In this document: piece after piece, positions 578 through 5,173 of the stretch | How the letters are laid out: each line of letters opens with the position of its first letter | Numbering within the stretch: the first letter of the stretch is position 1 | IMG/VR virus record: IMGVR_UViG_3300020411_000214 | Coordinates: 1 to 21,022 of that record | From: a virus | Length of the DNA: 21,022 nt | Reading direction: 5' to 3' (one strand) | Program-made: the position numbers and the translations under genes | Notes under the pieces: generated by a model | What the model saw: the letters and a program-made list of their open reading frames with translations, nothing else | The model's database searches: none | Told to the model about the DNA's origin: nothing

Positions 578-3067
578 TTAAGTAAAAAAGGATTCGAGGT
601 TTGCAGTTCTTTCCACCTGCCATCCAATAGAGTCCAATATGATCCTTAAAGGTTCAAGGAAACTCTTATTGAATTGTAAGTCATGATCGATATACTTGTC
701 GATACCTAACTCTTTGGGGAAATCTTGTATAAACGAGATAACATTCTCATGTATCTTGTTTGGTTTTTTGAGGTAGCAGAATTTAATCTTCTCACCATTG
801 CTTATCAACGAATACTTATTCGTCAACTTTTTCTCCTTGATGTAATGGTTAAACAGTAAAGCACCCCGAACATGTATCGGTGTGCCTTTGGTATAAATCA
901 TGCTTGCCGATTTATATTTAGTGACATCAGAAACTGACCTTGGGAATGCAATATCCTCAGGTGGAAGTTTCTTAAATTTCTTACGACTAGCAGCAATAAA
1001 ATTAATAACATCATCCTCTGAACCATTCATCATAAGTTTAAGAGCATCCTTAATCATCTGACGACAAGGTGCAGGTGTAGAAGATTTAACTGCCTCTATA
1101 CCCATCATCTTCAACTTAGGTTCATTGTATTGAACACCTTCACTGTTCCATACATTTAAGATGTATCGCTTCTTAGCAGTCCATATACCTCTGTCTGCGA
1201 TGTTCTCTCGTTTCATAAACATCTTTTGATCATAAGCACTAACATACTCTGCTAATTCTTTATAAGACTGATCGATGAAGGGTTCAAACTTCTCCTCACA
1301 AACCTTATCAAGAAACGGGACAATCTTAGCAGGATCTCTTTTCTTATCCTTATAGACAACATCGACAAGAGGACCAAGGTTAAGATAGATACTGTCAGTA
1401 TCACTAGCAATAACATAGTCAGTATCCTCCGTCTTAAGAATATTGTTTAAGTACTTATTAATCTTATTCTCTATCCATCTAATACTAACCTGACCTGATA
1501 GAGTAATGGCTTCAGCATTTGCTAGTTTATAATACCTGAAGTACTGATTGCCGATAGCACCATAAGCAGAATTAAGAGATATCTTCTTTGCCATTTGGAT
1601 GTTGTTACACCTGGCAATCTCTTTGACAAGATCAGGCGAGGGTGTCTTCTCGTATTTCTTCTTGGCATCGATCATCCTCTTCTTAAAAATTACACGCTCG
1701 TTATACATCTTCTCCATGAGTTCAGGGAGAAAACCACGAATGTCTTTACGATACTGTGCTCCATTAGCACAGGTAGCATACTGACTATCTACCTCAGTCT
1801 CCTGATTTAGAATCCTTTCAACGCTTGCACTGGGACATCTAGCCTGCCTGAGGGTTTCTGGACTGATATTATATTGCATAATGAGATGAGGATACAGGCT
1901 ATTGAGGTCAAAATTAACAACCCAATCATAGCGTCCTGGTTTCGGTTCCTTGACATAAGCTCCTGCGTACTTTTCATCCTTGTCGGATCTCTCCTTCGGT
2001 GGGATGACGATGTTCCGCTTCTTAAGGTAATTGTATATAATGTTGTCCCACATTCGGACTTGATAAAACACATCTGCATAATTCACCTTGGCATCATATG
2101 CCATAGTTAATGCAAGCTCAATGAGTTTCATCTTGTCTTCCAGACGGTCAACAAGTTCCACATCGATTATATTATACTCTACAAATTTTTGCCAGCCATT
2201 TGTATAGAAATCTTTAAATGTGTCGAATTCACTATGATCTAATTTCTGCTGACCCAATTCTACCTGTGCAATATAATCCAACCGATAAGACTCTTGTGCC
2301 TTATAAGTAAATTTCTTATAGAGATCTAGATAATCTAACTGAGTTACTCCACCAATATCATATGTCTGATACTGACGACCTTTAATAAAAATCTCCTTAG
2401 GAGAACATAGACCCCAAGGTGATAAACGCTTCATTAACTTATCACCAAGTACACGACTAATGCGTCTAGCAATGTATGGTATATCGAACAGTTGTATGTT
2501 CCATCCAGTCACAATATCTGGAGTATTATCCATCCACCATTGAATGAAACTACTCAACAGATCATGCTCATTATTAAACTGTATGTAACGAACATTCTCC
2601 TGCTTGATTTTAAAAGGACCAACACCCCATGTTGTAATCTCTTTAGTATTATAATCTTGCATAGAGATCAATAAGATCTCCTGATCTGCTGCTACAACAT
2701 CAGGAAATCCATTTTCAGATCTAGTCTCAATATCAATAGTATATAAACCGATCTTGCTTATATCAAACTTAATCTCATCTTCAGGATAACTATCAGCAAT
2801 ATACTGATAGATGAATCTATCCTGACCATAGATGGGGAAGTTTTCTACAAACTCATACTTCTTTATAAAATCTCGTGACTCTCTAACAGTACCAGGTTTA
2901 ATCTTCTCTACATATTCACCTTCTAAGGTCTGATACTTAGTCTTTTTCTTAGCAGGTACAAACAAAGTAGGAGAGTACTTCTCACGAATTTGGAAGTACT
3001 CTCCTTTGTCGTACCCACGAACGAGGAAATGATCCCCGATCATAACTACACTTGTGTAAAATTTCAT
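578..3067 (-). CDS. 43: DNA polymerase gp43 (family B)
   Basis: Replicative DNA polymerase with 3'-5' proofreading, 829 residues against 898 in T4. Exonuclease motifs: ExoI YTIDIETRS (D112, E114), ExoII TGWNIQLFDIPY and ExoIII YNIIDVELVD. Polymerase motifs: motif A NFDLNSLYPHL near 387-397, motif B KKISLNSAYGAIGN near 490-503 and motif C SDTDSIY with the catalytic DTDS near 555. The frame is intact, with no intein or intron. The C-terminus LESFFT resembles the hydrophobic clamp-binding tail through which phage polymerases hold gp45 (inference). The start overlaps the preceding small gene as ATGA. Gene order regA ... 43 ... uvsX is as in T4, but five genes or leader elements are inserted between regA and 43. 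Confidence 0.97.
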   Translation of the reverse strand: MKFYTSVVMIGDHFLVRGYDKGEYFQIREKYSPTLFVPAKKKTKYQTLEGEYVEKIKPGTVRESRDFIKKYEFVENFPIYGQDRFIYQYIADSYPEDEIKFDISKIGLYTIDIETRSENGFPDVVAADQEILLISMQDYNTKEITTWGVGPFKIKQENVRYIQFNNEHDLLSSFIQWWMDNTPDIVTGWNIQLFDIPYIARRISRVLGDKLMKRLSPWGLCSPKEIFIKGRQYQTYDIGGVTQLDYLDLYKKFTYKAQESYRLDYIAQVELGQQKLDHSEFDTFKDFYTNGWQKFVEYNIIDVELVDRLEDKMKLIELALTMAYDAKVNYADVFYQVRMWDNIIYNYLKKRNIVIPPKERSDKDEKYAGAYVKEPKPGRYDWVVNFDLNSLYPHLIMQYNISPETLRQARCPSASVERILNQETEVDSQYATCANGAQYRKDIRGFLPELMEKMYNERVIFKKRMIDAKKKYEKTPSPDLVKEIARCNNIQMAKKISLNSAYGAIGNQYFRYYKLANAEAITLSGQVSIRWIENKINKYLNNILKTEDTDYVIASDTDSIYLNLGPLVDVVYKDKKRDPAKIVPFLDKVCEEKFEPFIDQSYKELAEYVSAYDQKMFMKRENIADRGIWTAKKRYILNVWNSEGVQYNEPKLKMMGIEAVKSSTPAPCRQMIKDALKLMMNGSEDDVINFIAASRKKFKKLPPEDIAFPRSVSDVTKYKSASMIYTKGTPIHVRGALLFNHYIKEKKLTNKYSLISNGEKIKFCYLKKPNKIHENVISFIQDFPKELGIDKYIDHDLQFNKSFLEPLRIILDSIGWQVERTANLESFFT

Positions 3068-3336
3068 TCAGATATCAGTTGCTCGTATGCTTTCAATAGA
3101 GCAGGTTCTGGGTCAACAATAGTTAGTATAGCATCAGATGAGATCATGCACTTGTATTGTTGTGTCAGATTCTTACCTGGCCACCTTTGCAATCTATCTT
3201 TCCAATCTTCATCACTGATCCTGAACTCCACAGGATCTTCTAACTCACAATCAGGTTCACCCAATTCAGTCTGAACTTCTCTGATCTTGGTTATTAAAAC
3301 CTTAGAATCATTCTTTAAAACAAGTAGTTTAATCAT
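3064..3336 (-). CDS. Small possible LSm-fold protein, paralogue B
   Basis: A 90-residue protein, MIKLLVLKNDSKVLITKIRE..., ending YEQLISE. Its beginning resembles the protein encoded just upstream (MSVKIAVLNDGTQILADIKE): an initial beta strand, a DG/DS turn, a second strand with I-x-x-I-x-E, and a later D/N-x-x-x-x-T-V-x-x-P segment (LTIVDPEP here, VTTVCEPV there). That beta-rich plan, with a turn near residue 10, is compatible with the Sm/LSm fold, and small LSm-like proteins of putative cyanophage origin have been described; this assignment is inference. It is joined by ATGA overlaps to the gene before it and to gp43 after it, so it is probably made together with polymerase. Confidence 0.75.
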   Translation of the reverse strand: MIKLLVLKNDSKVLITKIREVQTELGEPDCELEDPVEFRISDEDWKDRLQRWPGKNLTQQYKCMISSDAILTIVDPEPALLKAYEQLISE

Positions 3337-3644
3337 TCTCTTCTACCGTTAGTTAAATCTTCATACATTGCCCTAAGATCTCCTACAGGTTCACACACTG
3401 TAGTGACACAATTAGGATTCAGAATATATGTATGATCCTCTGAAACTTCCATCCAAGATCTTAATCCAATCTTTTTAACCTCACCACCTGCTTTATCATT
3501 CTCCTCAACAAGTTTCATTTCTGTGGTGTAAATGATCTCGAAAGGTCTGATAACCAGATATTGACGAGTATCACCATCGGTAACTTCCTTTATATCAGCA
3601 AGGATTTGTGTACCGTCATTTAATACAGCGATTTTAACAGACAT
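3333..3644 (-). CDS. Small possible LSm-fold protein, paralogue A
   Basis: A 103-residue protein, first in the transcription unit that contains gp43. It begins MSVKIAVLNDGTQILADIKE and ends DLTNGRRE. The N-terminal DGTQILADI strand-turn-strand and the later ILNPNCVTTVCEP segment suggest an Sm-like beta barrel, an inference shared with its smaller paralogue downstream. The ATG at 3644 has no Shine-Dalgarno; it is preceded by a run of seven A and a G, and by about 200 nt of foldable leader. This start is the only ATG near the beginning of the conserved strand. If it is an RNA-binding LSm-like protein, autoregulation through that leader would be a reasonable idea, but nothing here proves it. Confidence 0.76.
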   Translation of the reverse strand: MSVKIAVLNDGTQILADIKEVTDGDTRQYLVIRPFEIIYTTEMKLVEENDKAGGEVKKIGLRSWMEVSEDHTYILNPNCVTTVCEPVGDLRAMYEDLTNGRRE

Positions 3645-3853
3645 CTTTTTTTGGAATATTTAGGGTGGGAGGTTGGATTCCTGTTTACCAACAAGAGGAG
3701 GGCATTTCTACAGTTTAGAATTACTCCTCTGCCTGAGACCCGATTGGTCATCGGTTCTGGTTCACTCGAACCAGCAGCACCACCTGTGTCTCATCACCTT
3801 AACCAGCTATATGCCAGTAAGTTTATTCAGTCACTCCCTGTGTTGCGTCCAAC
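3645..3853 (-). ncRNA. Highly structured leader or small RNA
   Basis: About 210 nt between a sigma-70 promoter and the ATG at 3644, with no convincing reading frame on the minus strand. Perfect helices readable in the transcript: hairpin 3842-3853 (GTTG/CAAC, loop GACG); a three-way junction closed by 3788-3793 pairing with 3734-3739 (TGAGAC/GTCTCA), containing hairpin 3757-3774 (7 bp CTGGTTC/GAACCAG, loop GAGT) and hairpin 3740-3754 (5 bp CCGAT/ATCGG); a long hairpin 3694-3700 with 3724-3730 (7 bp AGAGGAG/CTCCTCT) enclosing 3706-3710 with 3716-3720; and 3672-3676 with 3688-3692 (GTTGG/CCAAC). It could be a riboswitch, a protein-binding leader or a free small RNA. I did not match it to a named family; cyanophage leader motifs such as manA or wcaG are candidates to test. 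Confidence 0.6.
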
Positions 3854-3859
3854 GGAGTT

Positions 3860-3888
3860 ATTATAGCATAAAGAAAGGGAGGTGTAAA
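3860..3888 (-). promoter_or_regulatory. Sigma-70 promoter for the leader RNA and gp43 unit
   Basis: The -35 is TTTACA (3888-3883, five of six consensus bases), the spacer is 17 bp, and the extended -10 is TGCTATAAT with hexamer TATAAT at 3865-3860. The predicted start is near 3853. The -35 lies in the loop and inner stem of the terminator hairpin of the upstream unit, so termination and re-initiation share the same bases. It would be read by host RNA polymerase, giving a transcript that begins with the structured leader. Confidence 0.72.
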
Positions 3889-3896
3889 CCTCCCTT
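3871..3896 (-). terminator. Rho-independent terminator after hsp20
   Basis: Perfect 9-bp stem AAGGGAGGT/ACCTCCCTT (3896-3888 with 3883-3875) with a 4-base loop, followed on the minus strand by a TTTCTTT tract. It ends the unit that finishes with hsp20, about 60 bases after its stop codon. Confidence 0.72.
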
Positions 3897-3909
3897 CCCC
3901 TCTTTAAAA

Positions 3910-3954: not shown

Positions 3955-4383
3955 TCAGATCCAGTCTTTACGCTGATGATGATCTGGGACAACCTTACCG
4001 AGTGTAACAGTTAGTAGTCCATCCTCAAAGTTAACTTCTTTGACAACAGTGTCATCAGAGATAGTCCATGCTCTATTAAAGGATCTTTGTGCAATCCCTC
4101 TATGACTGTAATTAACTTCTTCCTTGTCTTCCTTCTTACTCTCTACAACGAGTTTACCATATTCTGTGTAGACTTTAACCTCATCCTTTTTGAATCCTGC
4201 TAGAGCAATCTCTAGTCTAGACTCAGTGTTACTTACATTAATTAGATTGTAAGGTGGATAATTAGAACTGGTTTGTAAATCGAAGAATCGATCAAAATAA
4301 TTGTCGAGTCCTATGCTATTCTTGGTGATCTTGTCCATAAGATCAGGCAAGCTTTCAGCATGAAATCTTTGTATGTTAGACAT
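3955..4383 (-). CDS. Small heat-shock protein Hsp20
   Basis: ATP-independent chaperone of the alpha-crystallin family that holds unfolding proteins, 142 residues. An N-terminal arm (1-45) is followed by the alpha-crystallin domain (about 46-130): VSNTESRLEIALAGFKKDEV, the KLVVES strand, the RSFNRAWTISD segment and the end motif NFEDGLLTVTL (118-128, the usual G-x-L near the domain end). The C-terminal tail is short and lacks an obvious I-x-I motif. The start at 4383 is chosen because AAAGGAGG lies five bases before that ATG; an in-frame ATG at 4434 would add 17 residues with no ribosome site and no family match. Hsp20 genes are common in T4-like cyanophages. It is last in its unit, before a terminator. 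Confidence 0.93.
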   Translation of the reverse strand: MSNIQRFHAESLPDLMDKITKNSIGLDNYFDRFFDLQTSSNYPPYNLINVSNTESRLEIALAGFKKDEVKVYTEYGKLVVESKKEDKEEVNYSHRGIAQRSFNRAWTISDDTVVKEVNFEDGLLTVTLGKVVPDHHQRKDWI

Positions 4384-4413
4384 AATGGCCTCCTTTAAAA
4401 GCGAGTGTGAATT

Positions 4414-4436
4414 GTGTGACCCTTTCGGCATCACAC
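4414..4436 (-). promoter_or_regulatory. GAAA-loop hairpin in the hsp20 leader
   Basis: The 55-base gap between the HAD gene and hsp20 holds an inverted repeat GTGTGA/TCACAC (4436-4431 with 4419-4414), closed by CC-GAAA-GG. It ends 30 bases before the hsp20 ATG and does not cover the GGAGG ribosome site. It might be an RNA-processing site or stabilising element; a heat-sensing role is possible for an sHsp leader but is not shown. Confidence 0.45.
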
Positions 4437-4438
4437 TA

Positions 4439-5173
4439 CTATTTAACCACGGATCTATTATTTTGTCTTTCGTAAATACCCTCTAAAATAGTTCTGGTAT
4501 CCGTATGATCTTTAACTTGGTACGCTTTACCGCCCCTATCCTGTACTGCTTTTGCTAAAGCATAATCATTCTGGCCTTCTTCCATCATATCACCAAAGAA
4601 ATACAACTCCTCACCTAACCTAAAATCTCTTAAGATCTGACTCTTATTACAACCTGGTGCTCCTAAATCTAAACCAGTCTGTCCTCCTATATTAACCTCT
4701 AATTCTGGAAACTTTAACTTAAGTCTTCTGGCAATTTCTTTCCTTTCATTCGTTCTTTGATCCCACTTTACATACTCTTCTCTCTCAACAAAACATGTAA
4801 GACCTCTACCTAGAATACTAAAGTTAACTCCTCCTGGCCTTCTCTCAATATGCTCACCATTACGGACAGGGAACTTACTGAATAGTAATTCATTCTCCAA
4901 ATGGTTCTGAACATCCTTAGGTAACTCCCAGTCATCTCTATAGACACTAAGATCCCCTTCATATACATCAGAACCAGAGCAGTTATAAACTCTCTTAGCT
5001 TTGTTGTATATTCCTGGGGTAACCTGCTCAATAGTTTTTTCCCTATCACTACCAGTGACTAAGTATACATCATTACAAGTTGAAAACTCATAAAAGAAAT
5101 GTAAGAACTCAGGTTCAATGGTTTTTCTAGCAGGTGTCAGAGTCCCATCAACATCAAAAATAAATTTCTTCAG
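4439..5173 (-). CDS. Phosphomannomutase-type HAD phosphatase or mutase, CTG start
   Basis: A 244-residue HAD-superfamily protein of the eukaryotic-type phosphomannomutase family (about 246 residues), which interconverts mannose-6-P and mannose-1-P or acts as a sugar phosphatase. Motif I is FDVDGTLTP with nucleophile D7 and acid/base D9; motif II is VTGSD at 39-43; the cap has two spaced arginines (ERRPGGVNFSILGR) and GGQTGLD at 163-169; motif III Lys is near 177; motif IV is FFGD at 192-195, then a Gln-Asn-Asp segment at 201-203. The frame is open from a TAA at about 5200 and contains no ATG, GTG or TTG before motif I. The likely start is CTG at 5173, seven bases after GGAGG and overlapping the regA stop as CTGA. 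Starting at the first TTG (4900) would delete the catalytic aspartates. Product specificity is unknown. Confidence 0.85.
   Translation of the reverse strand: MKKFIFDVDGTLTPARKTIEPEFLHFFYEFSTCNDVYLVTGSDREKTIEQVTPGIYNKAKRVYNCSGSDVYEGDLSVYRDDWELPKDVQNHLENELLFSKFPVRNGEHIERRPGGVNFSILGRGLTCFVEREEYVKWDQRTNERKEIARRLKLKFPELEVNIGGQTGLDLGAPGCNKSQILRDFRLGEELYFFGDMMEEGQNDYALAKAVQDRGGKAYQVKDHTDTRTILEGIYERQNNRSVVK

Follow-up and report, generated by a model that had tools for sequence, protein, structure and literature searches.

The window analysed here, a stretch of 21,022 nucleotides comprising positions 1 to 21,022 of the IMG/VR record IMGVR_UViG_3300020411_000214, carries a strongly folded intergenic sequence between an hsp20 gene and a unit encoding two LSm-like proteins and the gp43 DNA polymerase, raising the question of what this RNA is and whether it serves the genes that follow it. 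The first-pass annotation, which read the sequence as a regulatory RNA controlling polymerase expression, suggested an Rfam scan of the leader; the match returned is a full-length manA RNA (RF01745), with a covariance-model score of 175.8 bits against a gathering cut-off of 55.2 bits (Table 1). The folded stretch ahead of the gp43 unit is a member of this catalogued family, itself already known, and its source is a T4-like marine cyanophage. As described for the family, the window copy sits in the potential 5′ UTR of a codirectional gene; it begins approximately 6 nt past the -10 hexamer and ends 17 nt ahead of the DUF6561 ATG at position 3644.

Table 1. Coordinates of the manA element, its promoter and the neighbouring genes in the window.
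Feature	Position	Strand	Details
gp43 DNA polymerase, third gene of the unit	578..3067	minus	PHROG 262 DNA polymerase, 1210 bits
DUF6561, second downstream gene	3064..3336	minus	PF20198, E 1.4e-24
DUF6561, first downstream gene, LSm-like fold	3333..3644	minus	PF20198, E 1e-6
manA RNA (RF01745)	3662..3854	minus	full length, model positions 1-192; 175.8 bits, E 1.1e-47
Closing helix, GGGAG (3838-3834) with CUCCC (3669-3665)	3665..3838	minus	encloses the multiloop; 99.6% of cells paired in 51 sequences
Three-way junction	3734..3793	minus	stem 3793-3788 with 3739-3734 plus enclosed helices; nearly every pair in helices 4 to 7 covaries
Predicted sigma-70 promoter, TTTACA-17-TGC-TATAAT, extended -10	3860..3888	minus	-35 at 3888-3883, -10 at 3865-3860
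Terminator-like hairpin after hsp20	3873..3898	minus	11 bp, -18.1 kcal/mol; -35 hexamer in the loop region
hsp20, upstream gene	3955..4434	minus	PF00011, E 1.9e-13; PHROG 432

The LSm-like fold proposed for the first downstream protein is supported by its AlphaFold model (pLDDT 75.6), the best Foldseek match of which is 3by7 (TM 0.74, E 4e-5), and the start codon of its gene is preceded by CCAAAAAAAG, confirming that a Shine-Dalgarno sequence is lacking. On the other side of hsp20, a phosphomannomutase-like gene (4439-5173, minus strand) is open over its full length only from a CTG codon (LKKFIFDVDGTLTP...) and overlaps the regA stop; it is truncated when ordinary start-codon lists are used.

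The folding energy of positions 3860-3640 is -64.5 kcal/mol (z -2.2), a modest value taken alone, and the fold was therefore assessed by comparison. In a family-structure alignment of 51 diverse manA copies, 94.8% of cells are paired, 30 of the 49 base pairs show changes on both sides, and the covariation score of 0.345 compares with 0.141 in shuffles (none of 500 reach it), falling to 0.085 or less once the pairing partners are slid. This strong covariation of the helices, a check that had also been proposed, establishes a closed fold of multiple helices; the three-way junction and the long hairpin noticed in the first reading correspond to helices 4 and 8 of the family structure. The closing helix varies in a compensatory manner (GGGAG/CUCCC, GGGUG/CACCC and AGGAG/CUCCU, representing A-U/U-A and G-C/A-U changes). 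Its 3′ strand accounts for the ACCTCCC sequence at 3671-3665, which is indeed present as first noted and had been likened to an anti-Shine-Dalgarno; a decoy of this kind is rejected, the motif being better accounted for as a helix strand with compensatory changes. The 5′ hairpin is variable in length, yet found in all 165 copies examined.

A total of 231 manA matches, 202 of them full length, were collected from IMG/VR contigs and phage genomes, from which a comparison set of 169 non-redundant phage copies with flanking DNA was drawn. The remaining 29 matches are partial, often at contig ends, and metagenome contigs often stop inside manA (for example L003, L013, L047 and L077), as would be expected if assembly fails at near-identical copies carried by phages that occur together.

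Upstream of manA in the window, the promoter described in the first-pass annotation is present, with its -35 hexamer inside the hsp20 hairpin, and transcription is predicted to start near 3854-3853. Near-perfect in sequence (11/12 plus TG), it ranks first among 35 promoter-like sites within 8 kb; the total of such sites is at chance level, and the case for its strength therefore rests on comparison among manA copies. A promoter scoring at least 11/13 occupies the matching place in 164 of the 169 copies (97%), 152 with an exact TTGACA, and ends at a near-fixed place, 20 to 35 nt before GGGAG. The same score is reached in none of 166 controls taken from DNA 150 nt upstream and in 0.1% of shuffles, and 174 of the 285 near-perfect promoters in 230 manA-bearing loci are located at manA. 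Judged from its position and sequence, this promoter is part of the manA unit, and a promoter of its own, as expected of a trans-acting RNA, thus precedes these 164 copies. The host RNA polymerase most likely initiates near 3854 from what would be an early-type consensus sigma-70 promoter.

The geometry of the overlap between the -35 hexamer and the hsp20 hairpin is evident in the sequence, and the hairpin probably functions as a terminator; its U tract is interrupted (UUUCUUU) and a simple terminator scanner does not list it. The same few bases may therefore both end the hsp20 transcript and begin the next. With the -35 hexamer located within a terminator hairpin in 69 of the 169 copies, the composite in the window appears to be a recurring design. 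Composite terminator-promoters of this design, with the -35 formed by the hairpin loop (for example AGGGATCTTGACGATCCCTTTTTTTATGTTATAAT), were observed at L032:10401, L064, L092, L269 and window positions 3898-3860, and recur in these cyanophages at sites including those lacking manA.

The genomic contexts bear directly on the proposed control of the polymerase. The structured RNA is real and belongs to a family of candidate regulators, however the polymerase-specific part of the proposal does not hold: DUF6561 follows in 10 of 140 cases and manA is usually far from it, several to tens of kb away in most isolates, so that a gp43-specific leader is rejected and a dedicated polymerase switch is not supported. 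In several phages manA is absent and DUF6561 is driven by a composite terminator-promoter like that of the window. The tandem pair of LSm-like DUF6561 genes precedes gp43 in all 23 T4-like cyanophages searched, including seven that lack manA, hence the suggested specific partnership between the LSm-like proteins and manA is not indicated and was rejected: the LSm-like genes are universal in this set, and manA is not.

In most of these phages the LSm-like/gp43 unit lacks manA and often lies behind another leader RNA that is not listed in Rfam (GAAAUACUGGCUGCGGUUAUG...CUACC). This RNA of about 62 nt precedes DUF6561-gp43 in relatives, is absent from the window, and gave no hit in Rfam up to an E value of 1. 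It contains covarying pairs (G-C/C-G/U-A) and lies a fixed 15-17 nt from the ATG of mostly one target; 49 of 60 copies have a strong promoter. Loci with this RNA (GAAAUACUGGCUGCGGUUAUGCCCUUUGGUAGGUUCAGCAUAAGCGGCUAUAGGAAUCUACC) include L031:920-990, L055, L076, L269 and L122:5250-5330, among others. It shares with manA the genomic slot and the promoter type, whereas its fixed spacing and mostly constant target are features of a cis-leader, and the two RNAs have no sequence match.

Each of the 18 manA-bearing phage records contains exactly one copy, distributed over at least seven genomic places; one contig, L103, holds two copies. The element is located after gp23 in P-HM1, MED4-213, P-RSM1, P-RSM4, S-SSM5 and MbCM1, after pstS in P-SSM3, P-SSM4, P-RSM3 and S-SSM4, between regA and purS in P-SSM2, after ferredoxin in P-SSM7, before talC in P-RSM6 and P-TIM40, before gp32 in P-HM2, and before tRNA-Gly-DUF6561-gp43 in S-SSM7, and was not found in seven other T4-like Synechococcus phages. 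Small hypothetical ORFs are annotated over manA in the deposited genomes of P-HM2 (PHM2_011/012), P-SSM4 (PSSM4_169.1), S-SSM5 (SSSM5_127) and S-SSM7 (SSSM7_180), and are probably spurious. A host origin of the element was rejected, as 300 genomes of the Prochlorococcus family are without manA while the same query detects it in Photobacterium and phages; a pattern scan of genome contigs was too unspecific, with no real manA among its matches. Distant copies (79-90 bits) occur in 6 of 52 Photobacterium genomes at one chromosomal place, with an extended -10 just before them. These copies (L382-L387) follow a histidine-phosphatase-like gene, and a conserved intergenic stretch of approximately 250 nt extends to the next gene.

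The cores of 370 pairs of copies are at least 95% identical, and in 278 of these pairs (75%) neither flank is related. The core of the window copy is 99.4% identical to that of L331, which precedes a different, unrelated gene, and the isolates P-SSM3 and P-RSM6, with manA in the pstS and talC places respectively, have cores that are 98.8% identical and unrelated flanks. P-HM1 and P-HM2, which taxonomy places in a single species, carry different versions of manA in different places. Chimeric metagenome assembly could partly explain near-identical cores with unrelated flanks, however the isolates show the same pattern.

The sequences directly after manA are as varied as its locations. Of the 169 copies, 80 lead into an ORF that begins within 60 nt, no terminator intervening; 41 are followed by a farther ORF, 25 by a terminator ahead of the first ORF and 15 by a tRNA gene (Asn, Gly or Asp), and 8 have other arrangements. 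Terminators of any kind follow 32 of the 169 copies, compared to 18 of 507 shuffles; in the window, neither a terminator nor a tRNA is evident directly after the 3′ end. The tRNA genes (tRNA-Gly, tRNA-Asn or tRNA-Asp) begin within about 5-20 nt of manA at L256:4001-4254, L007, L037, L061, L107, L113 and L024. A conserved 40-nt hairpin, AGACCUAAGAUGCAACUCnnnGAGUcGGGCAGAUGGUCU, was also observed 6-14 nt after manA in L064:4030-4090 and 27 further non-redundant copies, often with a U run next to it and with stems that covary from GACC/GGUC to AACC/GGUU. Its core has 120 matches in viral contigs, 109 directly behind manA, one at a contig edge, and the remaining 10 without the second half; no Rfam match was obtained at E up to 0.5. 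The late promoter motif TAAATA directly follows manA in 28% of copies compared to 5% of shuffles, and was set aside as an argument because it is enriched but present in a minority of copies.

The identity of the downstream genes bears on the published reading, in which manA is a cis-acting riboswitch in the 5′ UTR that would sense a metabolite related to sugar phosphates or nucleotides and switch the gene that follows. Weinberg et al. 2010 (PMC2864571) place manA among the riboswitch candidates located in 5′ UTRs, with ibpA chaperones among its neighbours, and PMC9964418 repeats the label. The 140 downstream proteins include transaldolase (22), gp32 (18), ThyX (14), DUF6561 (10), ManA (7), PMM (7) and Hsp20 (6), with others such as PurS; the ORFs represent more than 20 families with a lean towards sugar-phosphate, nucleotide and replication functions, tRNAs and structural neighbours occurring too. 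This lean, exemplified by transaldolase, PMM, ManA, PurS and ThyX, fits the riboswitch idea and counts against gene independence. Of 162 genes that follow manA, 160 share its orientation, compared to 141 of 159 upstream genes (p 1e-4), and the long unpaired stretches conserved in the 51-copy alignment would suit ligand binding. A shared expression platform was not found, however, as the 3′ strand of the closing helix pairs downstream in 5.9% of copies compared to 7.8% of shuffles, and spacing to the next ORF ranges from about 10 to over 200 nt, with tRNAs or terminators directly after some copies. Shine-Dalgarno sequences are rarer in the downstream genes (14%) than in other genes (25%). Identical RNAs ahead of unrelated genes, structural and replication genes among the neighbours, and a single copy per genome regardless of neighbour also argue against a gene-specific switch, which we consider unlikely.

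An equally doubtful alternative, drawn by analogy with the putRNA of phage HK022, is a gene-independent cis leader that would cause RNA polymerase to ignore downstream terminators, or would stabilise the 5′ end of the transcript. The putRNA is described in the available text of PMC9378689 as binding RNA polymerase and acting on the transcript that carries it. The position of manA, always right behind a strong promoter and nearly always heading codirectional genes of any kind, often with terminators just downstream, agrees with such a device. However, a single copy per genome would be surprising if many operons could profit from the device, DUF6561 is driven by the same type of promoter without manA, and half of the manA copies have no terminator to pass. 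Least credible, and very improbable, is the suggestion that the manA sequence serves chiefly as a preferred site of homologous recombination among phages, its varied neighbours resulting from module exchange at a shared sequence and not from RNA function; the abrupt switch of flanks around near-identical cores and the differing copies of P-HM1 and P-HM2 fit this idea. However, most helices show strong compensatory covariation, which only selection acting on the RNA can produce and which disfavours recombination as the sole explanation, and Photobacterium retains the fold at a constant position in the chromosome.

The reading we favour, with a probability of about 0.48, is that manA is a self-contained phage RNA driven by its own promoter and independent of the following gene, probably acting in trans. 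The narrower description of manA as an exchangeable, independent noncoding RNA gene instead of a riboswitch, with one copy per genome, always its own promoter, indifference to neighbours and sometimes a 40-nt 3′ hairpin, is tentative, at somewhat short of even odds. Gene independence is suggested by the constant promoter, the one copy per genome, the near-identical RNAs with unrelated flanks, the varied downstream genes and the lack of a shared platform. The transcript adopts the closed multi-helix domain demonstrated by covariation, its function would not depend on whichever gene follows, and a trans-acting RNA might be released by a terminator, by tRNA processing or by RNase cleavage. In the window, transcription probably continues, such that manA would also form the 5′ leader of DUF6561-DUF6561-gp43. 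Several observations count against this reading. About half of the copies run straight into an ORF, one contig has two copies, and chimeric assembly may account for part of the near-identical cores. The codirectional genes headed by manA are as expected of an operon leader, so that manA may have a general role as a 5′ leader; a strong promoter active early would be acceptable only ahead of genes running the same way, a point that softens this objection and does not remove it.

The element was listed in 2010 as a riboswitch candidate and has stayed an orphan, a label that subsequent work on cyanophages has kept. The constant promoter, the one copy per genome, the identical RNA before unrelated genes and the terminators or tRNAs right behind it, as observed here, point away from gene-specific control. 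If manA does act in trans, it would represent a widespread early RNA tool of Prochlorococcus-infecting phages, and the question is testable in phages with cultured hosts, such as P-HM1, P-HM2, P-SSM2 and P-SSM4. A transcript map of manA was not found in the literature, and the main text of the P-HM2 RNA-seq study (PMC5082946) is silent on manA.

In comparison to known systems, the window copy shares with the published manA RNA a match across all 192 model positions, the same helices, a cyanophage source and a chaperone neighbour, here hsp20 upstream, and differs in leading an LSm-like/gp43 unit. The constant promoter, the one-copy pattern and the frequent tRNA or terminator neighbours do not appear in the available published passages on manA and are a misfit with a gene-specific riboswitch. 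Glutamine riboswitches (RF01739 / RF01704) are likewise structured cyanophage RNAs, and matches to them lie shortly after manA at L102:1194-1242, where the match directly follows manA, and L116:3320-3368, that in L102 alone being above the Rfam cut-off; they have a different structure and constitute a proven aptamer class, whereas manA is an orphan candidate. The HK022 putRNA resembles manA as a promoter-proximal, folded phage RNA that heads early units irrespective of the gene that follows; a difference is that manA is present as one copy per genome.
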